Source of the DNA: Aquila chrysaetos chrysaetos
Lineage: Eukaryota; Chordata; Aves; Accipitriformes; Accipitridae
Direction of reading: 5' to 3'
Length of the DNA: 64,000 bases
NCBI RefSeq assembly: GCF_900496995.4
Contig: NW_024470393.1
Span: 112,709 to 176,708, forward strand
Shown: positions 12,379 through 58,600 of the stretch, one piece after another
Layout of the letters: each line of letters begins with the position of its first letter
Numbering within the stretch: the first letter of the stretch is position 1
Program-made: the position numbers and the translations under genes
Notes under the pieces: generated by a model
Databases searched by the model: none
Told to the model about the DNA's origin: nothing
Seen by the model: the letters and a program-made list of their open reading frames with translations, nothing else

Positions 12379-13687
12379 ATGTGGGAGAGAGGGGAGCAAG
12401 CGCCGCTAAGCCGAGCGGAGGCTTTGGCCTTGGGCCGGAATGGTACCGGGAACCGGGCAGCAGGAGCGGGCTGGCGGCACGCCTGCCACGTCATGCTGTA
12501 CGCCCCTCTACCCACCGGCTCCCCACCGCCTGGCTACGCCGTACTGGTGCGTACTGGTGAAGCGGGGGAGGGAGAAACCCCCCCTCCTTGCCGGTTTTCG
12601 TGACTGATCCCTGCCGCTCCGGTAGATGCAACTGCGGTTCGACGGGCGGTTCGGGTTCCCGGGGGGGCTGGTGGAACCCGACGGGGAATCGCTGGAAGCC
12701 GGCTTACACCGAGAACTACGGGAAGAACTAGGCCCGGCGACGGCCGGTTTACGTTTACGACCCCGCCACCATCGGGGCGCGAGGGTTTGGCCGGCGGGTG
12801 GCACCGGAAGCGGAAGTGACGCCGGGCTCGTGACGCATTTCTACATCCGGCGCTTATCCTGGGAGGAACTGGTGGCCATCGAGAGGGGCGGCCCGCGGGC
12901 ACCGGAGCACGGCCTGGAGGTGGGGGGGGGGGGGGGTCTTGGGGACACCGGGACCCGTTGAGGGGGAGTTTAAAGGGGCGGGGGGGGGGGCTGGGGGACA
13001 CCGGCACCCGATGGGGGGGGGGTCTTGGGGACACCCGCACCTGCTGGGGGGGGGGTTTAAGGGGCGGGGGGGCTGGGGGACACCGGCACCGGTTGGGGGG
13101 GGAGTTTAAGGCGGGGGCGGGGGTCTTGGGGACACCGGGACCCGTTGAGGGGGAGTTTAAGGGGGGGGGGGGGCGGGCTGGAGGACATCGGCACCGGTTG
13201 GGGGGGGTCTTGGGGACACCGGCATCGGTTGAGAGTGGAGTTTAAGGGGGGGGGGGGCTGGGGGACACCGGCACCGGTTGGGGGGGGGGGGAGCTTAAGG
13301 GGGGTTGTGGTGTTATTTGGGGCCTGGGGGGGGTTGAGTTGGGGGATAGGCACCGGGGGACATGGGTACCGGGGAAGGGGGGGGCTCCATCTGGCCCGCC
13401 TTTTTTCTGTCGGGGGGGGGGGTGGTGGTGTCACTGGGGTAGTTTAGGGGGTTTCCTGGCACTCTGGGGGATCCCCCTGCCCCCCCCAGGTGCAGGGGCT
13501 GGTGCGGGTCCCCCTGGGCAGCGGGCTCCCCGCTTTCCTACGGCATCGCTTCGCCGGGGATGCCCGGGAGCAGCTGCTGGGGGCCCTCCTCGCTCTCGGC
13601 ATCCGACCCTCCCCCCTCAACGAGGAACCAGCGGGGGACCCCCAAATCCAGGTGGCCGGGGAGCTCCCCCCGCCCCCCCAAACTTGA
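12379..13687 (+). CDS. NUDT16-like Nudix hydrolase (U8 snoRNA-decapping type)
   Basis: This is a Nudix pyrophosphohydrolase of the NUDT16/NUDT16L1 group. NUDT16 decaps U8 snoRNA and some mRNAs in the nucleus and hydrolyses IDP/ITP. Exons: 12379-12546, 12626-12919, 13490-13687; 660 nt, 219 aa. GWRHACHVMLYAP, MQLRFDGRFGFPGGLVEP, SLEAGLHRELREELGP, LVTHFYIRRLSWEELVAIE and HGLEVQGLVRVPL follow the NUDT16 order. The Glu-rich Nudix helix RELREEL is intact, unlike syndesmos (NUDT16L1), which has lost it, so catalysis is plausible. The chosen ATG (12379) is in good context; an upstream in-frame TTG is not needed. Intron 2 (12920-13489) is a G-rich minisatellite. It is tandem to NAA10 on the same strand; in mammals NUDT16 is not X-linked. 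Confidence 0.85.
12920..13400. repeat. G-rich minisatellite in intron 2 of the NUDT16-like gene
   Basis: Units of roughly 35-45 bp are based on GGGGACACCGGCACCGGTTG followed by a G-run and GAGTTTAAGG. The G-runs would form G-quadruplexes. Confidence 0.8.
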
Positions 13688-18268: not shown

Positions 18269-19785
18269 TCATGTCAGCCAGGCCAGCGCCAGGTAGAGCC
18301 CCAAGGCTAGGGCGGCCGTGGGCCCCCCCCCCATCCCCCCAAGCCACCGGTACCAGTACGGCCAAGGCCAACACGACCCCGCACCCCCTCAGGGCCCCCC
18401 CCAAACCCCCCCCCCCGCCCCCGGGGGGGCCTCGCCGGCACCACTAAGGCCCCCTCCACCGGCCCCCCCCTCCCTAATAAAACCGGGGGGCTGCGGCGAC
18501 CCCCTCCCGCTTCATAACGCAGCGCCATCTCATTAGCTAACGAGGTGTTGGGGGCTCGTTCGGGTAAAGGGGGACCCCCGTTTCTCGGGGGGGGGCCCCC
18601 GTTGTCGCCGGGCTCCCCCCGCAGCCGGCGGAGGTGGGAGAGGTAGAGCTGCTCCAGCTCCCGCGCCACCGCCTCCTCCTCGGCGCCCTGGGGGGGGGGG
18701 GGGGGGCAAGATTTTGGGGTACCCCCTCCTCCTCGAGGGAGGGGGCACCCCACTTTTTTGGGGGGGGGGTTTGTCTCACCTGTGCCGGGGGCTGCTCCGC
18801 ATCCACGGGGGGCGTTGGGGAAGGGTCGGGCTCTGTGGGAGGGAAAGGGGGGGGGTGCTAGGGCGGGTACCCCTAAAATTGGGGGGGTACCTTTAAAATT
18901 GGGGGGTACCTCTAAAATTTGTGGGGGTACCTCTAAAATTTAGAGGGGGGGTGATACTTACCCGCGCCACGGTCGGGGGGTGGGGGCTGCGTGTCCTCTG
19001 CCTCCTGTGGCCTTTTTGGGGGACACGGGGGGGGGGTCATCGGAGAGGACCACCCCCCCCCCAAAAAAAAAAAATTGGGGGGCAGGGGGGCGGCGTCTGC
19101 AGCCCCCCCAGAGGGTGACCCACATTCGGGGGGGGGGGAGGACCCAGGCATGCCCCATAGCCCCCCCCCCAATTTAGAGGGGCGCATGCGGGGAGGGGGG
19201 GGGCGTTGACCCCATTTTTGGGGGTGGGCCCCCCCATGCAGTTTTGGGCCCCCCCCCCCCCCCCCCCAGTCTCTTACCTGCCCTTCCCAGGCCTCATCCA
19301 GCTCACGGGGGGCTGCTCCCCCCCCCGCGCCCCCCTCCCCACCCTGGGGGGGGTCCCCCAAAACCCCCGCTCCCCCCCCCCCGGGATCCCTCCCCCCCGC
19401 CCCCGGGGGTCCCAGGGCCGGTATTGCCGCAGGCGGGTAAGGGGGAGCCCCAAAGCGTCAGCGAAAAGGACCCGCCGGGACCCCCCCCCCGGGGGGGGGC
19501 GCGGGGGTGTCGGGGTCCCCCGGGGGGGGGGACACGGGGTTCTGGGGGTCCCCCAGGGGAACCCAGGCGTCCGGGAGGGACGAGACCGGGAGCCAGGAGT
19601 CCGGGGGGGGGGGAAAAGCCGCCGTGGGGGGCATGGGGGGAAGGAGGGGGGGTCCAAGGGGGGTGAGGGGGGGTCCCGGGCCGCGGGGCAGGCTGGGAAG
19701 GGCCCCCCCGGCGCGGGGCATGCCGGGAGTCCGGCCAAGGAGCGGGAGGGGGGGGAGCCGGGGCGGAGGCGGGTGCCCGGGCCAT
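18269..19785 (-). CDS. PPP1R3F: PPP1R3F-like protein phosphatase 1 regulatory subunit, frame-broken in homopolymers
   Basis: PPP1R3F targets PP1 to glycogen at membranes. The exon near 19440-19490 encodes SRRVLFADALGLPLTRLRQY, an RVxF-type PP1-docking motif close to the family's N-terminal sequence, and runs to about 19280 (ELDEAWEGQ). Further exons with agreeing phases: 19004-18962 (EAEDTQPPPPDRGA), 18832-18780 (EPDPSPTPPVDAEQPPAQ), 18687-18269 (ARELEQLYLSHLRRLRGE, TSLANEMALRYEAGG). Removing one base from each of the C-runs at 18395-18402 and 18323-18332 joins the last exon to a hydrophobic C-terminus (VVLALAVLVPVAWG, then TAALALGLYLALAWLT). That fits the known C-terminal membrane anchor. 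The N-terminus is unclear: ATGs at 19785 and 19721 are in other frames. I could not find the carbohydrate-binding CBM21 domain. Its place beside FOXP3 supports the name. Confidence 0.6.
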
Positions 19786-20989
19786 GGCGGGAGGGGGCGT
19801 GGCCGGGAGGGGGCTGCGCAGGCGGCGGGGGCGGGGCTTGTGGGCGGAGGGGAGGGGCGTGGTCTGGGCGGGGCTTATGGGGGTCCCAGGGCGGGGGAAG
19901 AGGGGTGCATGGGTCCCAGGGGAGGGGGGGGGGGTGAAACGCCCCCCCCCCCCCCCCGCCGGACGCTGAGGGGTGTTTGGGGGGGGGTCCTGGAGACTGG
20001 GGGGTTGTCTTGGGGGTGGTGGTTAAAGGGGCATCCCTGTACTCCTGGGTCCCCAGGGGCCGTGGGGGGGGGCAAAGCGAGGTCCCCCAGATGCCTGCAC
20101 CCGTTGTGGGGGGGGGGCACTGGGGGCGAAGCGGGGTCCTCAGGACGCCTTGGTCCCTTTGTGACCCCCACCCCCCAAAAGGGAGCTTCAGCACAAGTGA
20201 AAGTTTGGGGCGGTGCTGGTGCCCCCCCCCATCCCAATGGGGAGGGGGCGGAAGCGGGGGGGGTGTGGAGGATTTGGGGGGGGCCCCCCAGGACCCCCCC
20301 CCCAAGAGGGGGAGGGTTCTCTGACATCACGGGGGGGGGTACCATAAAAAGCGGGGTGCCACGGGTGGGGCGGGCAGGCGAGCGGGGTGCTGCTGGTAAG
20401 CGGGGTTCGGGGGGGACGACAGATGGGGGGGCTGCGCCCCAACACACGCAGGCACAAGGCGGGGTGGGGGGCAGCCAGCGTGCAAGGGCCTTCGCACGAG
20501 GGGCCCGCGCACGCCCTCACGCCGCGGCACATGGCCGCCACGGGGATGGGGTTGGGGGGTCCCTATGGCGGGGCGGGGAGGCATTTTGGGGTGTGGGGGG
20601 AGTGGAGCAGGCCCGGACGCCTGGGTCCCCTGGCCCTCCCCCCCCCCGGTTTCCTGCTGTCTCAGGGCAAGTTTCAAGTCGCTTCGAGCTGGGGAAGTCC
20701 CCGGGGGGGAAAAACACTCCCAACCCCCCCTTTCCCTCCCGAAACCGGGGAGAGGTCCCAGTGTGCTGAAACCAGGAGCAGGTTTGGGTTAAAGCGGGGC
20801 GAATTCGGGGTCGGAAAGCGTCAAAAAAATAACATTAAACCGGCGGGTTTCAGGTGCGCCATTTCCTCGCGAAAAGGGCAAAAGTCGGGGCCTGCAGCTG
20901 GCAAACGCCCCCCCCCCTCAAATTATGGGGGTACGGAGGGGGGCTTTGTCGAGGGGTTTTACCCTTTCTGAGCAATTTTTAAGGATTTG
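19786..20989. other. GC-rich intergenic region between PPP1R3F-like and FOXP3
   Basis: CpG-rich PPP1R3F promoter side (19786-19900), followed by G-run sequence. At 20320-20400 there is a TGACATCA (CRE-like) motif, a CATAAAAAG TATA-like box at about 20343, and CTGCTG followed by GTAAGC, a good donor, at about 20392-20400. Together they could be a non-coding first exon of the FOXP3 transcript. Long proline/glycine open frames here on both strands reflect base composition and are not called. Confidence 0.3.
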
Positions 20990-22569: not shown

Positions 22570-22589
22570 ATGGCGGGCGCCCGGGACCC
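22570..22589 (+). other. Candidate first coding mini-exon of FOXP3
   Basis: ATG opens MAGARDP and is followed directly by the donor GTGAGC at 22590. It could splice to an acceptor at 23514. The resulting frame joins FOXP3 exon 2 only if the eight-G run at 23573-23580 is really seven. The 5' UTR would be only about 10 bases. Moderately speculative. Confidence 0.35.
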
Positions 22590-23340
22590 GTGAGCTGGGG
22601 GCACTGGGAGGCACTGGGAACTTACTGGGGGGCACTGGGCGGCACTGGGAACTCACTGGGGGGCACTGGGCGGCACTGGGAACTCACTGGGGGGCACTGG
22701 CATGATGCTAGATGGGACCGGGAGGGCACCAGAGTGATGCTGGGTGGGACTGGGTGGGACCAGAGGGGACTGGGAAGGGAGACTGGGAGGCACTGGGTGG
22801 TGACTGGGATGGATTGGGGATTGGGGAGGGGCTGGAGGAGCACTGGGTGGGGAAAACGGGGAGACTGGGAAGGACTGGGAGGCTGCTGGGGGGTACTGGG
22901 GTGGACTGGGTGGCACTGGAAAGGACTGGAAGGGGTTTTGGCTTACTGAGAGGGACTGGGGGGCGTTGTGAAGGACTGGGAGGGATTGCGGCTTACTGGG
23001 AAGGACTGGGAGGCGCTGGGAAGGACTGGGAGGGATTGAGGCTTACTGGGAAGGGCTGGGGGATGCTGGGAAGGACTGGGATGGACTGCGGCTTACTGGG
23101 GGATGCTGGAAAGGACTGGGGGAAACTGGAAGGGACTGGGGGGCTACTGGAAGGGACTGGGATGGACTGGGGAGACACGGAAAGGGACTGGGGGCACTGG
23201 GATGGACTGGGAGCTCCATAGAGTGACAGTGGATGGGATGGGGAGGGGGTGCCAGGGGAGGACAGGAGTGGGTCCAGTTCATACTGGGAGCACTGGGAGA
23301 TACTGGGGAAGGTGGGGGGGAACAACTGGGGGTGCCACAG
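22590..23340. repeat. CACTGGGAG minisatellite upstream of FOXP3 coding exons
   Basis: An array of diverged GGCACTGGGAACTCACTGGG and GGGAAGGACTGGGAGG units. The same CACTGGGA motif makes arrays in several CACNA1F introns. Confidence 0.85.
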
Positions 23341-23570
23341 GGCGGGGGGGGGGGGGGGGGCCAGTCCCCCCCACCCACGCGCTCATGCCGGGACTTGCCA
23401 TGACGCAGGCCCCTCGTGCGAGGCGGCTCGCACGCTTATGTCACACAATTTGGGGGGGGGGGGGGGGGCCGAGGCCGGGGGGGGGGTTGTCTGACACAGT
23501 GCCACCCCCCCCAGGCTGCGCCGCCCCCCCCGCGGCCCCCAGGATCGCCCCACGGTGCTGACCCGCGGAG

Positions 23571-26248
23571 ATGGGGGGGGCCCCTCGGCGCGCTCAGGTG
23601 GGGGGGGCTGGGCCCGGAGGGGGGGGTGCTTGGGGCGGGGGGGGGGTGTGCGTCAGGATGTGGGGGTTCACTTCTTGCTTCCCCCCCCCCCTAAAATCTA
23701 TAGGTGCCACCCGAGGGGGGGTCACGCCCCCCCTTCCTGCACATCCAGCACCCCGGGGTGCTGGTGATGAGGACACGGCTCCCCCCAGAGCATGGTAAGA
23801 CCCCCCCCGCCAAACCTGCACCCCCTCCTTTTGGGGGGTCCCCCCTTTTTGTGACCCCCCCCAAACTCTTCCAGGTCTCCCCAGTTTTGAGTGGGGCCCC
23901 AAAGACCCCCCTGGCCGTGATCGAGCCCCCTCACCCGCCCCCGCCGGCAGCGACCCCCCCCAGCTGCCCCCGAGTGCCGCCCAGCCCCCCAGGTGAGTGG
24001 GTCCCTTGTTGGGGGGGGGGGGGGCACCCCGAACCCCTGGGTCCTCACCCGCCCTCCCAAAAATATGTGCGCCCGCCCCCCCCCCAACGCAGGGCACCCC
24101 GCTGTGACCTGGGGGAGGTAGCGCAGTGCCTGCGGCAGCTGGAGAGGATCCAGGAGCTGGAGCAGCAGGTGAGGGGGGGCCCCCCCAAATCCTCCCCACC
24201 CCCCCCCCCAAATCCCACCCTGAACCCCCCCAAGTGCCCTGTGACCCCCCAAAACCATGACACCCCCCCCCCAAAGCCTGTGCCCCCCATGTCCCCCCCC
24301 AAAACCTTTGCTCCCCTAAACTATGTCCTCCCTGTGCCCCCCCTCAATCTGTGGCCCCCCAGACCCCCCCCAAATCACCCCCTAAACCTGTGGGCCACCC
24401 CCATGTCACCCCGAAACCTGTGGCCCCCCCAGACCCCCCCCAAACCATGTCCCCCTCCCAAACCCATGCCCTCCACATGCCCCCCTAAACCTGTGGCCCC
24501 CCTGTACCCCCCACACCATGCGCCCCCCCAAACCTGTGTCCCTCCCGCAACCACACCACCCCCACCAAACCCATGTTGTGTCCCCCCCCACCCCCGTGCC
24601 CCCCAAAACTTGTGTCCCCCCCCCCAGCTGGCCCGCGAGCGGCACCGCCTGGGGCTGTTGCAGGCGCAGCTCATCCGGAGGAGCCCCCCCACAGCGGTAA
24701 GGGGGGGGGGGGGGCAAAATGACAATGACACCCCAAAACAGGGGCGGGGGGGACTGGGCCCCCCCCCCCAAAGTGCTGCCAGTCCCTCACCTGTGTTCTC
24801 CCCCCCCCCAGGGCCCCCCCGGGAAGGGCCAGGCTGGGGTACCCCCAATTTGGGGCCAACCGCCCCCCCCCCGAGGGGGAGCCTGAGATCCCGCTGCACC
24901 CCCCAGGGCACTCCTGGGACCACGGGAGGCTCTGCCCAGGTGAGCACCAGGTTTGGGGGGGGTGGGAAGACAGGGGGGGGCCCCCAAATAACCTGGGAGG
25001 GGACCCAGATGCCTGGGTCCCCGCTGACCCCCCCCTTGGCTGCCCCCCAGAACTGGAGTACTACCGGCTCAGCACTGCCCGGCCCCCCTACACCTACGCC
25101 ATGCTCATTCGCTGGGTGAGTGACCCCCCCCCCCGCGTCACCTATAGCCCCCCCCCATGTCCCCTACACCCCCCCCGCCCTATACATTCCCCCCGATTCC
25201 TTATAGCCCCCCCAAGTCCTTCACCCCCCACAGCTTTCCTGTTCCTGTGGCTGTTCCCCATAGGAATCCCCCTCTCCATGTCCCCATACCCCCCCCCCCC
25301 GTTCCCCCCCCCCCCCAGCCATCCTGGAGCCCCCCCATGTCCCCAAACCCCCCTGCCATGTTCCCATGACTCCCCCAAACCATCCTGGAGTCCCTTCCCC
25401 ACCCCCCCATATCCCACCCCCCAAAAAAAGTGTCCCTAAAGCCTACCATAACTCCCCTGTGTGCCTACCCGCCCCAGCACCCCATGTGTCCCCATACCCC
25501 CCCCGTCCATCCCAGAGTGTCCCCATACCCCCCCAAAGTGTCCCCAAACCCTGCCATGTGCCCCCCCCAAAAATGACCCCTAGAATGTCCCTGTACCCCC
25601 CACCATGCCCCCCCCCAAACCCTGCCGTGCCCCCCCTCCCCCAGACCATCCTTAACTGTCCCTCTGCCCCACTCCCAAAATGTCCTGTGTCCCTGATCCT
25701 GCCGTGTCCCCAATCCTCTTGAGCCCCCCCAAAATGTCCCAACACCCCACCAACCCTGCTGTGCCCCCCCCCCCAAAACACCCCCCCCCCAAGGCCATCC
25801 TGGAGTCCCCCCAGCGCCAGCGCACCCTGGGCGAGATCTACCACTGGTTCAGCCGCATGTTCGGGTACTTCCGCCACAACACCGCCACCTGGAAGGTGGG
25901 GACCCCCCCTGCACCCCCAAATCCCGCCCCCCCGACCCCCCCCCACCAGTTTGGGGTGGGGGGGGGTTACCCCAACACCTCCCTAAAAGATCAAGGGGCC
26001 ACACAGGACCCCCCCCCATCACCACCACTGGGAGGCAGGGGATCACTCCCCAGCACTGCAAAATGTTGCCACACAAAACGTGGGACCCCCAAACCGGTCC
26101 CCTGGGACCCCCCAATGCTGCTCCAGGGACAACCCCCCCAACACAGCCCCCCCCCCCCCCAAAAAGTGGGGAGGATGACACCCCCAATTCTCCCAGAGCC
26201 TCTCCAACCATCACCACCCCACTCTTGCAACAGCTCAGAGACACCGCA

Positions 26249-26293
<45 letters not shown>

Positions 26294-26675
26294 AGAAAAC
26301 CCCTAAATATGCCCCAGACCACCCCAAAATTCCTCAGGGAATTTGGGGGGGGGGGGAGCCCACCCTAATTCCCCGGAGTTTCCCCCCCCAGAACGCCGTG
26401 CGTCACAACCTGAGCCTGCACAAGTGCTTCGTGCGAGTGGAGAACGTGCGTGGGGCCGTCTGGACGGTGGACGAGGCTGAATTCAGGCGCAAGCGGGGTC
26501 AGCGCTACCCCAGGTACCCCCAAAATTGGACCCCAAAACCAGAGGGGGGGGTCCTTAACCCCCCCCCCCCCCAACCGTCCCTGATAAACACGGGGTTCCC
26601 CTCTAAACCCCCCTCCCTCCCCACTTCCCCCACAGGGACTGCGACCTGAAGTGCTTTATGCCCCCCCGGAGCTGA
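23571..26675 (+). CDS. FOXP3: Forkhead box P3, avian form lacking the zinc finger
   Basis: FOXP3 is the lineage transcription factor of regulatory T cells. Exons: 23571-23597, 23704-23794, 23875-23992, 24093-24168, 24628-24696, 24783-24939, 25051-25115, 25794-25895, 26392-26513, 26636-26675; 867 nt, 288 aa (human 431). N-terminal pieces [14 protein letters not shown] and [10 protein letters not shown] resemble the mammalian repressor region. The coiled coil reads [19 protein letters not shown] then [15 protein letters not shown]. Then [19 protein letters not shown] leads into a complete forkhead: [61 protein letters not shown] and IYHWF are FOXP3-type; as I recall, FOXP1/2/4 have LIRQ and IYNWF. 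The C2H2 zinc finger that precedes the coiled coil in other FOXPs is absent. The ATG at 23571 is one option; an upstream exon at 22570 is another. It is convergent with CCDC22, as in mammals. Confidence 0.9.
24180..24610. repeat. C-rich simple repeat in FOXP3 intron
   Basis: Units of roughly 24-35 bp, such as AACCTGTGGCCCCCC and AGACCCCCCCCAAA, fill the intron that splits the coiled coil. Confidence 0.7.
25116..25793. repeat. C-rich degenerate repeat in FOXP3 forkhead intron
   Basis: Loosely repeated GTCCCCATACCCCCCC, AAACCCTGCCATG and TGTCCCC units fill the intron after LIRW. No exon was seen inside. Confidence 0.6.
26251..26293. repeat. 43-nt pure C tract in FOXP3 intron
   Basis: Forty-three consecutive C residues lie in the intron between forkhead exons 25794-25895 and 26392-26513. 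It is the longest homopolymer noticed in the window and a candidate i-motif/G-quadruplex; its true length is uncertain. Confidence 0.85.
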
Positions 26676-26795
26676 GGGGGGAGGTCCCACCGCCCCCCCC
26701 AAAACCACAGTGGGGGGGCAGAGATGGGGGGGGTGTCCCTCCAAATTCCCCCCAAAAGGAACATGATGACACCCCAAAAACCACTGTGCTGAGAC

Positions 26796-26801
26796 TTTAT
26801 T
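26796..26801 (-). terminator. Polyadenylation signal of CCDC22
   Basis: The minus strand reads AATAAA about 155 bases after the CCDC22 stop. No clear AATAAA for FOXP3 was seen between its stop (26675) and here, so the FOXP3 3' UTR probably overlaps CCDC22. Confidence 0.7.
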
Positions 26802-26953
26802 GAAACCATAAAGGAACCGCTCTATCCTCCACCATGGGTGCATTTTGGGGGGGGGGGCTTCAGGCACGCCCACACCCCACTGTGTGCATGGGGGGGGGGG
26901 GTGACAGAGCCCCCCCGCAAGGGGATTTTGGGGGGACACCCAGGTTTTGGGGT

Positions 26954-29900
26954 TCAGGTGTGGCGGGCTTGTGCAGCCAGCAGCGCGTTCTCCTCCCGCA
27001 GTGCCCGGCAGTCGCTGAGGATCCGGTCGAGGCTGGCGGGGGGCTTCGCGCTCGTCTCCCCCTCGATCTGGGGGTAACAGGGTTGGGGGGGGGTGATTTA
27101 AATGGGGGGGGGCCCCCATAAAATGGGGGCGGGGGGGGCACAAAATGGGGGGCAAAGAGGTTGGGGGACAAACAGGATTACAAAGAGTTGGGGAAGGTCA
27201 CAAAGAATGGGGGGTTACAAAGAGATGTGGGGAGATATGAGCGGTTAATTAATAGCCCTGGGGGGGGCCCCCAGGGACACCCCAATCCTCGCCCCCCCCC
27301 CCCCCCATTATATCCTGCCCCCCCCCCAAACCCCCACCTGTTCCTCCAAGTCCCGGATCTCCCTCTGGATGGTCCCAGTGTCTTCGATGGTCTGGATCAG
27401 CTGGGCACAGTTCTGGGGGACAAAAAGGGGGGGTTCTGGGACCCCCCAAAAACCTCCAGGTCCCCCCAATTCTACCTGGCGCCCCCCCAAACCTTCACAC
27501 GCCCCCCTCCAGCCCCCCATTACCTCATGTAGAGCTGCCAGGTACTTGTAGGCTTTTCTCACCACCTCATCCCGCTTGGCATCCTGGGGGGGGGGCACGT
27601 GGGACAATTTGGGGGGGGGATACATGGGACAGTTTGGGGGGGCACACGGGACAGTTTGGGGTGGTCTTAGCACCCCAAACTTCCCCTCTTCCTTTGGGGT
27701 TATCCCATAGAGGGGGTGCCCTTGAGCATCTGCCCCAGGCCCCCCCCCAAATCCCACCTTGATCCCCCTGGGGGGGGGCCCCCCCACCTCAAGGTGTCCC
27801 CCAAGTACATGTGGAGACCCCCCCCATCCCAGGACCCCCCCCCCAACCTTGAAGAGCAGCTCGTCGGTGACGCTGAAGGTCCTCTCCAGCTTCCCCACCA
27901 GGGAGTTGATCTCCTTCTGCAGCGCCCGCGTGTCCACCAGGATCTGGGGAGACCCCCCCCCCCCGGGGTTCTCAGGTCTAGGGGGAGGGGGGGAACCCCA
28001 AACCCCCTCATTTTGGGGGTGCACCCACAGACACCCCCTCCAAACACCCCCTGCCCCCCCCCCAAGACCTCAAACAGAACCTAATACCCCAAGGACTCCC
28101 CCCCCCAGGACTCCTCTACATTGCCCTAGGGACCCTAAACTACCCCCCCCAAGGCCCCCCAAAATCTCCAGGGCCCCCCCAATGCCCACCCCCCCCCCCC
28201 AAAATCTTCCCCCCACCTTGCTGATCTCCTCCTTCTGCTTGCGGATGTTGCCCACGATCTCCAGGATGCGCTGGGTGTAGACGGCGCGTGAGATGTCACG
28301 GGGCAGCGCTTCCAGCTCCGCCACCTGCATCCGGGGAAGGGGTTGTGTGTGTGTGTGTGTGTGGGGGGGGGGGGGGGTGGTGCGTGAAAGTGGGGGGCAG
28401 CCCCCCAAATCACCCCGTGCCCCCCCTCCCCGCCATGGGTACTCACCAGTTGTTTGTACAGCTCCTCCTTGCGTCGGGCTTCGTCAGCGGCCGAGCGGCT
28501 GCGCTCGTGCAGGGCCCGGATCTCCGACAGCCGCCGCGACGACTCCAGCTGGGGTAGGAGAAATAAAACAAAAGGGCCGGGGGGGGGGGGGGGGGTGTGG
28601 GTGTCGGGGCACCCCCAAATCCACCAAGGGGTGGGACCTCAGAGACCCCCAAACCCCCAAAAAAGGGACTCCAGAGCCCCGAAACTACTGCGAAAGGGTC
28701 ATCAGAGTCCCAAAGTCACCGGGAAGGAGACCCCAAACCCGCTGAGAAGGGGATCTCTGCATCCCCAGGAACCCCAAAATGCATTTGGGGGGATATGGAC
28801 ACCCCAAACCCACTGGGAAGGGAACCCAGAGCCCCCAGGGACCCCCAAAACCCATTTGGGGGGATCTGGACACCCCAAACCCACTGGGAAGGGAACCCAG
28901 AGCCCCCAGGGACCCCCAAAACCTATCAGGGAGAGACCCGGGGACTCCCAAACCCACTGGGAAGGAACCGCAGACCACCAAAACCTATGGGGAAGGGGAC
29001 CCCAAACCCACTGGGAAAGGACCCCAGAGACCCCAAAACCCATTTGGGGGATAATCTGGGCACCCCAAACCCACTGGAAAGAGAATTCCAGAGATCCCAA
29101 AACCTACCAGAGAGAGACCTGAGGACCCCCAAACTCAGGAAAAAAAGGGACCTGAGGACCCCCAAAGAGGGGGGACAGACCCCAGACCCCCCCCTTACCT
29201 GAGCGGAGTCGCGCAGGGCCCGGAGGTGCCGGTATTCGGCGAGGAGGGGTCCCCGGTGCCGCTCCCACTGCCCCACCAGGCTGACGATGCGGCGGCTGCT
29301 CGCCTCCACCACCAGCTGGGAACAGGGTCAGGGCACCCCCAAAACGCTTCTTTCTGCCCCCCCCCCGCACCCCCAAAAGTGCCCCCCAGCACCCCCAAAT
29401 TGCCCACCCCTCCCCTTCACTCATCTGCCACCAGGACAGTTGCACACCCCAAACCACCCCTCTAAACCTCCTCCCCACACCTGCTGTGGCCCCAGACAGC
29501 TTCACAGCCCCCCCCCAAAAGACCCCCCCCCCCCCCCAGGGGGCACCCCAAAATCCTCACCTGGAGCTTGGCCATGTTGTTCTGGGCATCCGGGAGCAGC
29601 TCGACCGCCCGTGCCTTCAGCCGAAGGGCGTCCTCCCGGGCCCCCAGCGCCAGCCGGCCCTGCCGCACCTCCGCCTCCACCTGGGGGGGGGGGCGGGTAC
29701 CAACCATCAGGGCACCCCAAAACACCCTGCAAACCCCCCCTTAACTTCCCCCCCCCCAACCCCGGCACCCACCTGGGTGAGGCTGAGCTGGGCGTCCCGC
29801 ACCTCCCCACGGCAGCCCTCGATTTCGGCCTCCAGCCGAGCCAGGGTCTCCTCCAGGGCAGCCTCCTCGCTGGCCTGGCGTGCCCCTGCGTCCTAAGGTG

Positions 29901-32730
29901 GGGGGGGAAGGCCCTTCTAAATGCGGCCATCAGTAGGGTCCAGAGCGAACACCCATTCAACAGAGCCATCGGTAGAGTCCAGCGTGAACACGCGGCCATC
30001 AGTAAGGTTCAGAGTGAACGACCCCCCCATCCTCTCACCTCCTCAGAGCTCTTTGAGGGGTGCAGGGTCTCGGCAGCCACCTGGATCTGCTGCAGCAGGA
30101 TTTGGGGGTCCTGCGGGATGAGACCCCGGAGCAGGTCAGACCCCAGAGCAGGGGGGCCCCCCCCAAAACAACTCCCAGCCCTCCAGCAGCCCCCCCCCCC
30201 CCCCAAAACAACACTCCAGCCCTCCAGCAGCCCCCCAAAACAACTCCCAGCCCTCCAGCAGCCTCCCCCAGCCCCCCCAAAACAACTCCCAGCCCTCCAG
30301 CACCCCCCCCCAAAACAACGCTCCAGCCCTCCAGCACCCCCCCCAGCCCTCCCAAAACACCCCCCAGCCCCCCAGCAGCCCCCCCACCCTACCTGCTCAT
30401 GGGTCAGGTGCTGGGTGCGGGTGAAGCGGGACCCCTTGGGCAAGGCCCCCCCAGCCCCCCCAGTCCCAAAAGCTTCTTGGAGCCAAGTGGAGTCCAGGGG
30501 TCCTGGGGGGGGTCCCTGGGGTCGGGGGGGGCAAACCTGGCGCAGGGGCTCCAGGGCCCGGAGTCGAGCACGGAGCCGCTTCCGCCCCACATATTCCTGG
30601 GGGGGGGGGGGGAGGAAAGGGGGTGTCAGACCCATAGGGATCCCCAAAACAGACCCATAGATGTCCCCCCATATTGCTGGGGGGGGGGGTGTCAGACCCA
30701 CAGGGCCCCCTTCCCCCAAAAATAGCTCCATAAACATCCCCACAGCCCCCCTGTAGTCCTGGGGGTGGGGGGGAGGCTAAAGGGGGTGCCAGACCCACAG
30801 CAACCCCCAAAACAGACTCATAACCATCCCCCCAACCCCCCTGTAATCCTGGGGGGTGAGAAAGGGGGGGGTCAGACCCACGAGGACCCCCAAAACAGCC
30901 CCCTCCAACCCCCCCGCCCCAGGACTCAGAGAAAGGGGGTCAGACCCACGGACAAACACCTCTCCCCCCCCCCCCCCCCCCCCCCAAACTCCTGGGGGTG
31001 AGAGAAGGGTGGGACCCATAGGGTCCCCCCCAAATCCTGGGGACCCCCCCAGGACCCCCCGCAGTGGATGGGGGGGGGCGTCTCACCTGGGGGGGGCAGG
31101 CGGGAGGCCAGACCGGGACCCCCCCACTCGGCCTCCCAGTCATGGCGGGCGCTGAGCTGGGCTGCGTGGGTCTCCAGCAAGGCTGGGGGGGTCCTGGTGG
31201 AAAGGGGGGGCTGTGCCGGCACAGGGGGGGGCAGCCCCCCCAAAATACTCCTGCAGCTCTACAGGGACGGGAGGTGTGTGTGAGCAGACCACTCCCCCAA
31301 AACAAGGACACCACCCCCCCCCCAAATTCCCCCCCCCCAACTCTTACCTGGCGGTCCCCCACTTTGGGGCAGAACCAGGGGGCACGTAGTGAAGGAGTAG
31401 AGGCGACCTGTACCCTAAAAAGGGTTAATTAATGGATTAATTGCCCCTCCCAATTGAGAATTAGCCCCCCACAATTGGGGGGGGTCAGGGCCCCCCCCAA
31501 AGTTCACCTGCAGGCGCTGCAGCTGGGGGGTGCGGCAAGCTGGGGGCACCCAGGGGATCCCCAGCTGCTCCCGGATGCGGGTGCCAATGGCTCGTAGCAG
31601 AACCCCCGATTTCCCTGGGGAAGAAGATAAGGAGTGGTCAGCCCCCCCCCCCCCCGAAAAAAAAAACCAGGGGGGGACCCCCCAAAATCCATACCGGGGG
31701 GTTCAGCCCCTCTTTCGCTCTCGTCCCGCGGCAGTTTCTCCACGAGGAAGAGGAGGAGGCGGCGGGTGTCATGCTCGGAGCTGTAGAGGAAGGTCTGGTA
31801 CCCCACGTCGCCCCCAAATCCCAGCTCCTGAGGGTGAGAAATAGGAGGGGGGGACACCCCAAAATTTTTGGGGTCCCCCCTTCAAGATTTGGGGGTATTT
31901 TTCGGGGGGGGGGGTAGCAAGGTCTGGAACCCATCGCCTGTAAATCTCAGTCCTAGAGGAGAGCGGTGGGGTGGTCCGGGGTGGTGTCCCCGTCCCCCCC
32001 CAAAATTTTGGGGGTCCCTCAAGATTTTGGGGGGGGAGGGGGGATAATACCTGGCAAGCGGCTGCCAAGTCGGAAGCGAGTCGGAAGCGAGCGGAGATGC
32101 CGGGGGGCAGGAGGGGGCTGAGGGGGGCCCCCAAAGCCGGACGGATGGCCCGCAGGCAGCGGACGGCCGCTTCCACCACCAGCTCCGGGGAGAAGTCCCG
32201 CACGCTCTGCGCCTCGGGGGGCACCGGCCTTTTTGGGGGGGGGGGGGGGGACACACAAAAAAAATCATGGGGACCCCCCCCCCCCCCCCAAATCCTGAAA
32301 TACCCCCACCCCCCACCCTGGGTGTCACCTATGCACCTCCAGGCACTCCCACCCCTCTCCCAGCGGTCACCCCCCATCTCCAGTCATGCCCCCCCCCCCA
32401 AAAGTGTTTCTGTCCCCCGGGGACCCCCCCACCTCCAGTTATGCCCCCCCTCCCCAAATTCTTAGGGTGCTCCCCCAGGGAGCCCCAAAACTCCTTAGGG
32501 TCCCCCCAGGTGTCCCCTCACACCCCTAGTTCCCGCCCCCCAATTCCTTAGGGTCCCCCCCCTCCAGTCCCTTGACCCCCCCAAAACTCTTTAGTGCCCC
32601 CCCACCCCCCCCCCCCCCAAATCCCCCAGAGTTGCCCCCCCTCCCCCGCTCCCCCCAAATTCCCCCCCTCCCACACTCACGTCCCCGCCTGCCGCAGGGA
32701 GTGGATCAGGATTTTGTCCACCTCTTCCAT
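26954..32730 (-). CDS. CCDC22: Coiled-coil domain-containing protein 22
   Basis: CCDC22 is a scaffold of the CCC complex (COMMD proteins, CCDC93), which works with Retriever and WASH in endosomal recycling and supports NF-kB activation through IkB turnover. Seventeen exons (5'-3'): 32730-32681, 32228-32051, 31827-31695, 31614-31508, 31414-31348, 31182-31087, 30596-30393, 30110-30039, 29892-29773, 29680-29561, 29315-29199, 28548-28447, 28324-28217, 27943-27848, 27583-27524, 27412-27338, 27067-26954. The N-terminal CH-like domain opens MEEVDKILIHSLRQAGT and has SPELVVEAAVRCLRAI. The C-terminal half is coiled coil: ALPKGSRFTRTQHL, LGAREDALRLKARAVELLPD, VYTQRILEIVGNIRKQKEEI, RKAYKYLAALHE. Exon 6 has eight Cs at 31089-31096 where seven would restore LPPQ and the frame. 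Corrected length is 605 aa (human 627). Confidence 0.93.
28650..29165. repeat. About 71-bp tandem repeat in CCDC22 intron
   Basis: Units carry AAACCCACTGGGAAGGGAAC, CAGAGCCCCCAGGGACC and CCCATTTGGGGGGATCTGG. Two adjacent units near 28800 and 28871 are almost identical; the others are diverged. Confidence 0.85.
30130..31025. repeat. Two C-rich minisatellites in CCDC22 introns
   Basis: 30130-30380 repeats CAGCCCTCCAGCAGCCCCCC with CAAAACAACTC (about 30 bp). 30600-31025 repeats GGGGGTCAGACCCACAGG with CCCCAAAACAGAC (about 60-70 bp). They flank the exon at 30393-30596. Confidence 0.75.
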
Positions 32731-34362: not shown

Positions 34363-50100
<15,738 letters not shown>

Positions 50101-52649: not shown

Positions 52650-55600
52650 TTTTGAGGACCCCATCTTGAGGAGAAGGTGGAAGAAGGTAAGGGGAGCAAG
52701 GTAGGGTTGGTTTGGGGGTCCCTGGGGTTGATTTTGGGGTCCCCAGAGGAGTTTCAGGGTCCCAGGGGGGTGGGGTGGGGACCCTAACTTGAGGAGAAGG
52801 TGGAAGAGGGTCACGGGAGGAGTGTGGGGCCGGTTTTGGGGTCCCCGGGGCAGTTTGGGGGGGTCACCAGCAGAGTTAAGAGATGGTTGAGAGGGGTTCT
52901 GGGATGCAAGGGAATGGTTTAGGGTGGCTGTAAGGTGAGGGGGCACTTCTGGGGTGCCAAGAGTGGTTTGGGGCAGTTTTGGGGTCCTGGGGATGCTTCA
53001 GGGTTTTTTTGGGGGAGGTTCAAGGATGGTTTGGGGCAGTTTTGGGGTCCTGAGAACGCTCTGGCATGGTTTTGGGGTCCTGACAGTGGTCTGAGTGAGT
53101 TTTTGGGTCCTGGGGAGACTTTGGGTTTGTTCCAGGATCCCGAGAGTAGTTTTGGGCAGTTTTTGGGATGCTGTGAGGTAGTTCTGGGGTCCTGAATGTG
53201 ATTTAGGGTAGTTTTGGGGTCCTGGGGAGAATTTGGGGTGGTTCTGGAGTCCCAAGAATGGTTTGTGGGTTTTGTGGATGCCTTGAGGAGGTTCTGTGGT
53301 CCCTGAGAATGGTCTGGGGCAATTTTGGGGTCCTGGGGACACCTTAGCATGGGTTTGGGGTCCTGAGATTGGTTAGAAGCAGTTTTGGGGTCTTGGGGAG
53401 ATTTTGGGGTTGTTCTGGGATCCCAAGAGAGGATTGGGGCAGTTTTGGAAATGCTTTGATGTGATTCTGGCGTCCTGAGTGTAATTCAGGGTAGTTTTGG
53501 GGTCCTGGGGACCTTTTGGAGTGGTTTTGGGGTTCCAAGGATGGTTTGGGGCAGTTTTGGGGTCCTGAGGAGACTTTGCGGGGGATGTTGGCATCCCGAG
53601 AGTGGTTTGGGGCAGTTCTGGTATCCTGGGCATGCTTTTTTTGGTGGGTTCAAAGAATGGTTTGGGAAGGTTTTGGCATTCTGAGAAAACTTTATTGTGG
53701 TTCTGGGGTCCTGAGAGTGGTTTGGGGCAGTTTTCTAAGGTTAGCTCTGGGGACGCTTTGGTGTGGTTTGGGGATCCCAAGTGTGCTTTAGGGTAGTTCT
53801 GGGGTCCTAGGGAGACTTTGGGATGGTTTTGGTGTACCAACAGTTGTTTGGGCCAGTTTTAGGGTCCTGGAAACACACTGGGGTGGTTTGGGGATCCCAA
53901 GGATGGTTTGGGGCAGTTTGGGTGACGCTCTGAGGTGGGTCTGGGGTCCTGAGAGTGGTTTGGGGAAGTTCTGGGGTCATGGGGGACGCTTTGACCTGGG
54001 TTTGGGGTCCTGAGATTGGTTAGAGGAACTTCTGGGGTCCTAGGGAAACTTTGGGGTTGCTCTGGCATCATGAGAGTAATTTAGACTACATTTGGGGTCC
54101 TCGACAATGCTTTGGGGTGGTTTTGGTGTCCCAAGGGTCGTTTGGGCCCGTTTTAGGGTCCTGGAAACATTCTGGGATCCCAAGGACAGTTTGGCACAAT
54201 TTTGGGGATACTTTGAAGTGCGTCTGGGATCCCGAGAGTGGTTCGGCACAGTTTTGGTGTCCTAGGGACGCTTTAGGGGTTTTTTAGGTTTCCAAGGATG
54301 GTCTGGGTCAGTTTTGGGTACTGGGGGGAACTTTGGCGTGCTTTTATGGTCCCAAGGGTGGTTTGGGCCAGATTTAGGGTCCTGGAAACACTTTGGGTTG
54401 ATTTGGGGATCCCAAGGACAGGTTAGCGCAATTTTGGGGATGCTCTGAATTGGGTCTGGGGTCCCGAGGGTGGTTTGGCACAGTTTTGGTGTCCTAGGGA
54501 TGCTTTAGGGGTTTTTGGGGGTGGGTTCCAAGGGTATTTTGGGGAAGTTTTGGGGTCCTGAGGATGCTTTGCGGTGGTTTGGCGATCCCAAGGATGATTT
54601 GGGGCAGTTCTGGGGATGCTTTCAGATGGTTCTGGGGTCCTGAGCACAGTTTAGGGCAGTTTTGGGGTCCTGGCTATGCTCTGGTTTGGTTTGGGGCAGT
54701 TCGGATGCCCTGGGGACACTTCAGGCATTTCTGGGGAGTTCCAAGGATGGTTCGGGGCAATTTTGGGGATGCCTTCAGAGGGTTCTGTGATCCTGACAGC
54801 AGTTTAGGTGGTTGTGGGGTCCTGGGGAGACTTTGGGCTGGTTTTGGTGTCCCAAGGGTCGTTTCGGCCCGTTTTAGGGTCCTGGAAACACTTTGGGATC
54901 CCAAGGACAGTTTGGCACAATTTTGGGGATGCTTTGAGGTGGGTCTGGGGTCCCGAGAGTGGTTCGGCACAGTTTTGGTGTCCTAGGGACGCTTTAGGGG
55001 TTTTTTAGGTTTCCAAGGATGGTTTGGGGCAGTTTTGGGGTCCTGAGGACGCTTTGGAGTGGTTTTGGGATCCCAAGGATGGTTTGGGACAGTTTTGGGG
55101 ATGCTTTCAGAGGGTTCTGTGATCCTGACAGCAGTTTAGGGTGGTTTTGGGGTCCTGGGGAGACTTTGGGCTGGTTTTGGTGTCCCAAGGGTCGTTTGGG
55201 CCCGTTTTAGGGTCCTGGAAACACTTTGGGATCCCAAGGACAGTTTGGCACAATTTTGGGGATGCTCTGAGGTGGGTCTGGGGTCCCGAGAGTGGTTCGG
55301 CACAGTTTTGGTGTCCTAGGGACGCTTTAGGGGTTTTTTAGGGTTCCAAGGATGGTTTGGGGCAGTTTTGGGGTCCTGAGGACACTTTGGAGTGGTTTTG
55401 GGATCCCAAGGATGGTTTGGGACAGTTTTGGGGATGCTTTCAGATGGTTCTGTGATCCTGACAGCAGTTTAGGGTAGTTTTGGGTCCTGGGGAGACTTTG
55501 GGCTGGTTTTGGCATCCAGAGAGTGCTTTGAGGCAGTTTCTGGATCCTCAGGAGACTCTGGGGTGTTTTGGGGTTCCAAAAGTGGTGAAGGGCAGTTTTG

Positions 55601-58600
55601 GGGACCTGGGGACATTTTGGTGTGGTTCTAGGGTCCTGAGTGTAATTTTGGTGTGGTTTTGGGGTCCTGGGCAAGCTTTGGGGTCGATTTGGTGTCCCAG
55701 GGGTGGTCTGGGCCAGTTTTAGGGTCCTGGAAACACTTTGGGTTGATCTGGGGATCCCAAGGACAGGTTAGCGCAATTTTGGGGATGCTCTGAATTGGGT
55801 CTGGGGTCCCGAGGGTGGTTTGGCACAGTTTTGGTGTCCTAGGGATGCTTTAGGGGTTTTTGGGGGGGGGGGTCCAAGGGTGTTTTGGGGAAGTTTTGGG
55901 GTCCTGAGGATGCTTTGCAGTGGTTTGCCGATCCCAAGGATGGTTTGGGACAGTTTTGGGGATGCTTTCAGAGGGTTCTGTGATCCTGACAGCAGTTTAG
56001 GTGGTTTTGGGGTCCTGAGGAGACTTTGGGCTGGTTTTGGTGTCCCAAGGGTCGTTTCGGCCCGTTTTAGGGTCCTGGAAACACTTTGGGATCCCAAGGA
56101 CAGTTTGGCACAATTTCGGAAATGCTCTGAGGTGAGTCTGGGGTCCCGAGAGTGTTTTGGCACAGTTTTGGTGTCCTAGGGACGCTTTAGGGTTTATTTG
56201 GGGTTCCAAGGATGGTTTGGGGCAGTTTTGGGGTCCTGAGGACACTTTGGAGTGGTTTTGGGATCCCAAGGATGGTTTGGGACAGTTTTGGGGGATGCTT
56301 TCAGATGGTTCTGGGGTCCCATGAGTGATTTAGGGCAGTTTAGGGGTCCTGGCTATGCTCTGGTTTGGTTTGGGGCAGTTCCGATGCCCTGGGGACACTT
56401 CAGGCATTTTGGGGGAGTTCAAAGGATGGTTTGGGGCAGTTTTGGGGTCCTGGGGTGACTTTGGAGTGCTTTTAGGGCTCCAAGGATAGTTTGGGACAGT
56501 TTTGGGGATGCTTTCAAATGATTCTGGGGTTCCAAGAGCGATTTAGGGCAGTTTTGGGGTCCTGGGCAAACTCTGGGGTGGTTTTGGGGTCCTGAGAGTG
56601 GTTTGAGGCAGTTTTGGGTACTGGGGGGGAACTTTGGAGTGCTTTTAGGGTCCCAAGGACAGTTTGGCACAATTTTGGGGATGCCTTCAGAGGGTTCTGT
56701 GATCCTGACAGCAGTTTAGGTGGTTGTGGGGTCCTGGGGAGACTTTGGGCTGGTTTTGGTGTCCCAAGGGTCGTTTGGGCCCGTTTTAGGGTCCTGGAAA
56801 CACTTTGGGATCCCAAGGACAGTTTGGCACAATTTTGGGGATGCTTTGAGGTGCGTCTGGGGTCCCGAGAGTGGCTCGGCACAGTTTTGGTGTCCTAGGG
56901 ACGCTTTAGGGGTTTTTTTAGGGTTCCAAGGATGGTTTGGGGCAGTTTTGGGGTCCTGAGGATGCTTTGGAGTGGTTTTAGGGTCCCAAGGATGGTTTGG
57001 GACAGTTTTGGGGATGCTTTCAAATGGTTCTGTGATCCTGACAGCAGTTTAGGTGGTTTTGGGGTCCTGAGGAGACTTTGGGGTGGTTTTGGTGTCCCAA
57101 GGGTCGTTTCGGCCCGTTTTAGGGTCCTGGAAACACTTTGGGTTCCCAAGAACAGTTTGGCGCAATTTTGGGGATGCTTTGAGGTGCGTCTGGGGTCCCG
57201 AGAGTGGCTCGGCACAGTTTTGGTGTCCTAGGGACGCTTTAGGGGTTTTTTTTATGGTTCCAAGGATGGTTTGGGGCAGTTCTGGGGTCCTGAGGACGCT
57301 TTGGAGTGGTTTTGGGATCCCAAGGATGGTTTGGGACAGTTTTGGGGATGCTTTCAAATGTTTCTGTGATCCTGACAGCAGTTTAGGGTAGTTTTGGGGT
57401 CCTGGGCAGACTTTGGGCTGGTTTTGGCATCCAGAGAGTGCTTTGAGGCAGTTTCTGGATCCTCAGGAGACTCTGGGGTGTTTTGGGGTTCCAAAAGTGG
57501 TTAAGGGCAGTTTTGGGGACCTGGGGACATTTTGGTGTGGTTCTAGGGTCCTGAGTGTAATTTTGGTGTGGTTTTGGGGTCCTGGGCAAGCTGTGGGGTC
57601 GATTTGGTGTCCCAGGGGTGGTCTGGGCCAGTTTTAGGGTCCTGGAAACACTTTGGGTTGATTTGGGGATCCCAAGGACAGGTTAGCGCAATTTTGGGGA
57701 TGCTCCGAATTGGGTCTGGGGTCCCGAGGGTGGTTTGGCACAGTTTTGGTGTCCTAGGGATGCTTTAGGGGTTTTTGGGGAGGGGTTCCAAGGGTATTTT
57801 GCGGAAGTATTGGGGTCCTGAGGATGCTTTGCAGTGGTTTGGCGATCCCAAGGATGATTTGGGGCAGTTTTGGGGATGCTTTCAGAGGGTTCTGTGATCC
57901 TGAGAGCGGTTTAGGGTAGTTTTGGGGTCCTGGGGAGACTTTGGGCTGGTTTTGGTGTCCCAAGGGTCGTTTGGGCCCGTTTTAGGGTCCTGGAAAAACT
58001 TTGGGATCCCAAGGACAGTTTGGCACAATTTTGGGGATACTTTGAGGTGCGTCTGGGATCCCGAGAGTGGTTCGGCACAGTTTTGGAGTCCTAGGGACGC
58101 TTTAGGGGTTTTTTAGGGTTCCAAGGATGGTTTGGGAGAGTTTGGGGGATGCTTTCAGATGGTTCTGGGGTCCCCTGAGTGATTTAGGGCAGTTTTGGGA
58201 TCCTGGCTATGCTCTGGTTTGGTTTGGGGACGTTCGGATGCCCTGGGGACACTTCAGGCATTTTTGGGGCGTTCAAAGGATGGTTTGGGGCAGTTTTGGG
58301 GTCCTGGGGTGACTTTGGAGTGCTTTTAGGGTCCCAAGGATGGTTTGGGGCAATTTTGGGGATGCCTTCAGAGGGTTCTGTGATCCTGACAGCAGTTTAG
58401 GTGGTTGTGGGGTCCTGAGGAGACTTTGGGCTGGTTTTGGTGTCCCAAGGGTCGTTTGGGCCCGTTTTAGGGTCCTGGAAACACTTTGGGATCCCAAGGA
58501 CAGTTTGGCACAATTTTGGGGATGCTTTGAGGTGCGTCTGGGATCCCGAGAGTGGTTCGGCACAGTTTTGGTGTCCTAGGGACGCTTTAGGGGTTTTTTA

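Follow-up and report, generated by a model that had tools for sequence, protein, structure and literature searches.

The golden eagle genome carries an orthologue of FOXP3, the gene that defines regulatory T cells, which has no C2H2 zinc finger. We put the probability at roughly 0.87 that this reading holds as a whole: the gene is an avian FOXP3 orthologue without the finger, the breaks in its frame are assembly miscounts, the living gene encodes about 303 residues, and the finger exon was lost in the sauropsid lineage. The gene lies on the forward strand of a window comprising the terminal 64,000 bases of a 176,708-base contig, part of an assembly of 1.23 Gb in 144 contigs.

Plain tblastn against the window was too noisy in the GC-rich DNA, and a spliced, frameshift-aware protein alignment was used instead, with chicken P0006, falcon P0002, and Accipiter gentilis (hawk) P0001 as queries. 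A chicken Foxp3 was reportedly described by Burkhardt et al. in 2022, and P0006 is taken here to be that protein. The alignment yielded 11 coding exons at 22570-26675. All ten introns were GT-AG, and the window contained no N, so no sequence gap falls at FOXP3. The original prediction had described a complete gene of ten exons with agreeing phases at 23571-26675, a range that holds exons 3-11 and part of exon 2, with exon 1 and positions 23515-23570 outside it. The forkhead exons with LIRW and IYHWF stood, while the coding exons number 11 and the phases break twice, and "complete" was wrong for the sequence as assembled.

Exon 1 (22570-22589; MAGARDP) ends in phase 2 and matches the N-termini of the chicken and falcon proteins. 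Exon 2 (23515-23597), placed by spliced alignment, contains a run of eight G (23573-23580). It is followed by exon 3 (23704-23794), which, like exons 6 and 11, was recognized from both the sequence and the spliced alignment, and by exon 4 (23875-23992; GLPSFEW...QPPR), the aligned counterpart of the mammalian segment preceding the finger exon; exon 4 ends in phase 2. The next intron, of 100 nt (23993-24092), lies at the site of the finger exon and holds no finger remnant. The coiled coil starts in exon 5 (24093-24168) and continues in exon 6 (24628-24696). Exon 7 (24812-24939), which encodes the linker before the forkhead and contains a run of ten C (24863-24872), was placed by spliced alignment, as were the forkhead exons 9 (25794-25895; IYHWF) and 10 (26392-26513). 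Exon 8 (25051-25115), with the end of the linker and the forkhead start including LIRW, was placed by both the spliced and the forkhead alignments, and exon 11 (26636-26675) carries the C-terminus and the stop codon. P0001 concurs with this model from exon 2 onward, its own predicted start being intron here; 298 of 308 aligned residues are identical, and the hawk protein runs in frame through both faulty places. Chicken P0006 has the same exons and the same MAGARDP start, and likewise lacks the finger. Within the introns, tandem repeats of about 70 bases were observed at 24266-24546, as well as an unbroken run of 43 C at 26251-26293, which is likely a sequencing trouble spot. "Sequence stuttering" is described for chicken dot-chromosome introns in passages of a 2026 paper (PMC12954441).

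The identity of the gene as FOXP3 was supported by its best matches, the forkhead tree, and synteny. Among the best 120 of 795 matches, the closest were bird FOXP3 or FOXP3-like models, a few of them otherwise named, with Accipiter gentilis at 90% and Gallus at 78%. The forkhead was identical to those of hawk, falcon, and chicken at 83 of 83 residues. In the forkhead phylogeny with FOXP1-4 that had been proposed as a check (34 forkheads, 86 columns), the window sequence fell inside the bird FOXP3 clade (99/99) and FOXP1/2/4 formed a separate clade (99/92); with these 86 columns, the tree leaves FOXP3 monophyly over all vertebrates without resolution. The idea that the gene is a FOXP1/2/4 paralogue or copy draws on its forkhead identity to FOXP1/2/4 (62-65 of 83 residues), a value near that to mammalian FOXP3 (64-66), but the tree rejected it. 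The introns and synteny also speak against it, as do the tryptophan of LIRW, where all eight FOXP1/2/4-type proteins listed read LIRQ, and the C-terminal forkhead, with only 23 residues after the Pfam forkhead match. In addition, a FOXP4-like gene sits elsewhere, on contig C24, and we consider a FOXP1/2/4 origin practically dismissed. A C-terminal forkhead is named as a distinguishing feature of FOXP3 in the relevant passage of Denyer et al. (2016, PMC4777427).

The gene order in the window is NAA10-like (at about 10876, forward), PPP1R3F-like (reverse), FOXP3 (forward), CCDC22 (reverse), and L-type calcium channel alpha1 (forward). Among the flanking genes named in the original prediction, CCDC22 and an L-type calcium channel alpha1 gene were borne out, with PPP1R3F assigned by motif only and CACNA1F by position only. 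CCDC22 (32730-26957, reverse; 17 coding exons, stop codon excluded) lies tail to tail with FOXP3 and is identical to the Mycteria protein at 600 of 630 residues. The Aquila chrysaetos CCDC22 protein P0121 matched the window at 30770-30318 with 93% identity across 151 residues. The differences fall in its first stretch, and the match extends past both ends of the CCDC22 exon at 30596-30393. The coordinates of the calcium channel gene (38639-45351, forward) give the extent of two tested ORFs (38639-39085 and 44449-45351), not of the gene. The partial PPP1R3F-like gene (18310-20326, reverse) had no Pfam match and carries at about 19474 the motif RRVLFADALGLPL, which we take to be a PPP1R3F motif. 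Mammalian FOXP3 has the coiled coil, the linker, the C-terminal forkhead, the LIRW tryptophan, and the neighbours in common with the eagle gene, the last on the basis of the human gene order. The order in the window also matches that given for the ground tit in the passages of Denyer et al. (PMC4777427), which supports FOXP3 orthology.

Compared with hawk, falcon, and chicken FOXP3, the assembled eagle gene has an extra base in each of two homopolymers. All three bird proteins concur that the G run at 23573-23580 is one base above the conserved frame, while at the C run (24863-24872) hawk and chicken indicate one extra base and falcon a one-base codon at 24872. Exon 6 ends in phase 0, and exon 7 read in that frame runs into a TGA, which one extra base in 24863-24872 explains. 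As assembled, the frame is open only as far as a stop in exon 4; with both runs one base shorter, the phases agree throughout and a protein of 303 residues starting with MAGARDP is encoded, free of internal stops. A third shift, at 23514, occurred in the hawk alignment only and is due to the start of the hawk model in the intron. One neighbouring gene, CCDC22, served as the control, and alignment with three bird CCDC22 proteins revealed extra-base shifts at 31089-31096 and 31224-31231, both in 8-base runs. The two genes together contain eight coding runs of at least eight bases, four of which have a fault in or beside them, and no further frame fault was found in their 2,806 coding nt save the hawk-model shift at 23514, the comparison proteins being mostly predicted models that can mask frame faults.

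Since CCDC22 carries two similar shifts in 8-base runs, assembly miscounts are likelier than decay of FOXP3, and a general homopolymer miscount would be the simplest account of the frame breaks. Slippage mutations also favour homopolymers, and thus the runs alone are no proof of a miscount. If FOXP3 were decaying in this lineage, both frameshifts would be real and the locus a pseudogene or a broken allele. This would suit the assembled frame, broken at both runs, and, if the contig is from such a chromosome, the extensive loss of genes from bird dot chromosomes described in part of the 2026 paper (PMC12954441). Against it stand the same type of shift, twice, in the adjoining gene, the ten GT-AG introns, the forkhead identical to those of three other birds, and the phases that all fit, without an internal stop, once both runs are shortened by one, so that we regard decay as unlikely. 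Even less probable is the protein originally predicted, which would start at the ATG at 23571 and enter exon 7 at the AG at 24874-24875 with the phase restored. That ATG does share the frame of exon 3, and exon 7 would follow exon 6 in phase if it began at 24876. However, the ATG is out of the conserved frame and directly precedes the faulty G run, and the resulting protein would drop both the MAGARDP...QDRPTVLTRG start, whose counterpart is kept in falcon and chicken, and the exon 7 segment, whose counterpart is kept in falcon, chicken, and hawk. The preferred reading of an intact gene with miscounted runs carries a warning that GC-rich bird genes may look broken in an assembly though they are probably intact. 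The earlier suggestion that the gene had been hidden by its GC content agrees with the literature in the parts consulted and with the 68% GC measured over 22570-26675.

The statement that there is neither room for nor trace of a finger was upheld by the 100-nt intron at the site and by a search of all six frames of 22570-24700, in which neither a C2H2 pattern nor a CxxGC-type cysteine pair was found. A finger concealed in the intron at 23993-24092 was likewise rejected, with no pattern in six frames. The Pfam FOXP-CC domain, which comprises the finger and the coiled coil, was matched in the window over positions 37-67 of 69, and in macaque FOXP3 over positions 1-68. In the FOXP4-like gene on C24, used as a positive control from the same genome, a 105-nt exon that starts and stops in phase 2 encodes the two cysteines, and the 88-nt exon after it opens with the histidines. 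Such a symmetric exon can be removed without a frame shift. In the window gene, the preceding exon joins the coiled-coil exon directly in phase 2. At 76 nt, this coiled-coil exon is 12 nt shorter than its FOXP4-like counterpart, and it has lost both histidines. This suggests that the symmetric exon was probably lost and that the remainder was eroded, exon 5 being the eroded counterpart of the exon opening with the finger histidines. From gene models and one paralogue, we infer that the cysteine exon was lost in the sauropsid lineage and that the histidine half eroded.

Macaque FOXP3 models that skip the cysteine exon join in the same way as the bird gene, and a review excerpt (PMC5859138) states that deletion of exon 5 from human FOXP3 keeps the frame and omits the finger. 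While the human protein lacking exon 5 is a possible or predicted isoform, the eagle FOXP3 DNA allows no other form. A point against the preferred reading is that a passage of Denyer et al. (2016, PMC4777427) gives the finger as a domain common to all four FOXP proteins. Because it is absent from the sauropsid FOXP3 models examined, it was not used here to define FOXP3.

The proposed alignment with other bird and reptile FOXP3 proteins was carried out on the best 120 of 795 and the best 120 of 1,353 matches. Among the matches listed were 55 sauropsid FOXP3 models, counted as models and not as species (25 bird, 1 alligator, 8 turtle, and 21 squamate), and the finger pattern was found in none of them, so its absence is common to the models examined. 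A model was held to cover the site if it had the coiled coil with at least 40 residues ahead of it, a rule that 38 models passed (23 bird, 1 alligator, 5 turtle, and 9 squamate) and by which 17 were dropped. Bird and crocodilian models covering the site had the finger in 0 of 24 cases (23 birds and 1 alligator) among the matches listed. Again among the matches listed, 13 of 17 covering mammalian FOXP3 models had the finger, the four misses skipping the cysteine exon and two more models being dropped; five amphibian models out of ten passed the pattern, P0283 probably by chance, and several others join past the cysteine exon; the pattern also occurred in 3 of 4 shark models, none of which passed the coverage rule. 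The amphibian models that join past this exon indicate that a finger may be absent from a model through faulty prediction. The same fault likely explains why only 4 of 8 FOXP1/2/4-type proteins, including those of a songbird and a snake, had the pattern. Among the forkheads themselves, those of squamates often read LISW, LIGW, or LICW in place of LIRW (P0079, P0242, P0249, P0254, P0258, and others), with LISS or LISL in two geckos, and the songbird forkheads P0009, P0010, and P0011 share changes, such as R in place of A before TWKNAV and VEAARG in place of VENVRG, that hawk, falcon, and chicken lack.

A leucine zipper of the form I-x6-L-x6-L-x6-L spans exons 5 and 6, and the Pfam FOXP-CC match in the window was weak (E 0.0019, below the cut-off). 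In a structure model of chicken FOXP3 (pTM 0.36), a helix covers residues 107-144 with a pLDDT of 93-97 over 111-140, and the forkhead is present, with low confidence at the N-terminus. According to the sections consulted of a study of human FOXP3 (PMC2779587), DNA binding requires the zipper and the forkhead, the finger is dispensable, and C204S, which alters a cysteine of the finger, has no effect. The absence of the finger in sauropsids agrees with this dispensability, and the predicted reliance on the coiled coil is in line with the published human protein, an agreement by analogy. By extension from human and mouse work, eagle FOXP3 would pair through its coiled coil, bind forkhead sites through its forkhead, and dispense with the finger.

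The loop before the forkhead was also compared. In mouse FOXP3, the aromatic residues Y330, F331, and Y333 of this loop serve head-to-head dimers, as described in passages of Leng et al. (2025, PMC12820563). Among the matches listed, aromatics in the last 20 residues before the forkhead numbered 5-6 in 17 therian models and 3 in two monotremes. Of the 22 readable bird models in that set, 15 had 3 and the others 1-4, and the alligator had 4. Turtles had 2-3, 13 of the 20 readable squamate models had 2, amphibians had 2-4, and sharks 2-5. Mammalian FOXP3 thus has the finger and, in therians, 5-6 aromatics before the forkhead, while birds have no finger and mostly three aromatics. Visual inspection of the alignment gives Y, Y, and L for the eagle at mouse positions 330, 331, and 333, two of the three being kept, and N, N, and V at positions 377, 400, and 401, as in FOXP1. 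An aromatic-poor loop might change head-to-head dimerisation. A wider reading would make sauropsid FOXP3 a lasting "exon 5 minus" form, its finger exon removed without a frame shift by the time of the last common ancestor of living sauropsids, with altered DNA binding in which multimers on TnG repeats are kept and head-to-head dimers are weak or absent in birds. We find this doubtful. Frog and platypus FOXP3 also have three aromatics, and hence the low count is not specific to sauropsids. In the same passages of Leng et al. (PMC12820563), loops of other species, with platypus and frog among the constructs, keep the dimer with a modest loss of affinity for some, and changes at 376-378, 400-401, or 414 are not decisive. 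Their constructs come from platypus, opossum, frog, and zebrafish, with no bird or reptile in the list consulted, and chicken is not mentioned in the main text. A different dimerisation of bird FOXP3 is no more than a guess.

The original prediction set the novelty too high, since avian FoxP3 with its neighbours, and a missing finger in the ground tit and in reptiles, have been in print since 2016, in passages of Denyer et al. (PMC4777427) that left absence from all archosaurs as a question. The ground tit FoxP3 described there, alongside that of falcon, resembles the eagle gene in its 11 exons (a forecast), its neighbours, the missing finger, and the isoleucine opening the zipper, and has 298 aa against about 303 residues in the eagle. 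These passages do not name the lost exon, and the eagle comparison points to the cysteine exon. No report of exon-level finger loss was found among open-licence papers on reptile or turtle or golden eagle FOXP3, judged by titles and abstract starts. The exon-level route of finger loss is therefore modestly new, as is the aromatic-poor loop before the forkhead. The archosaur question gains the data from the 24 bird and crocodilian models, and a FOXP3 that seemingly lacks the finger in a large branch of land vertebrates offers a natural test of the finger's purpose. As for expression, the relevant parts of two chicken studies report FOXP3 in CD25+ CD4 cells and in CD4 cells of the spleen (PMC12716188) and, as a point against the preferred reading, no expression in single-cell data from blood leukocytes in which it was sought (PMC10826067).

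Several further features of the window were recorded. The coding end of FOXP3 at 26675 faces that of CCDC22 at 26957 on the opposite strand; no AATAAA or ATTAAA was found on the forward strand in 26676-27500, and a lone TTTATT, which is AATAAA on the reverse strand, lies at 26796. A NUDT16-like Nudix domain was detected at 12626-12958 on the forward strand (Pfam E 1.1e-24). Near the contig end, diverged tandem arrays occupy 53026-62136, with units of, for example, 172, 214, 273, and 333 bases, a strong GC skew, and a GC content below that of the genes.
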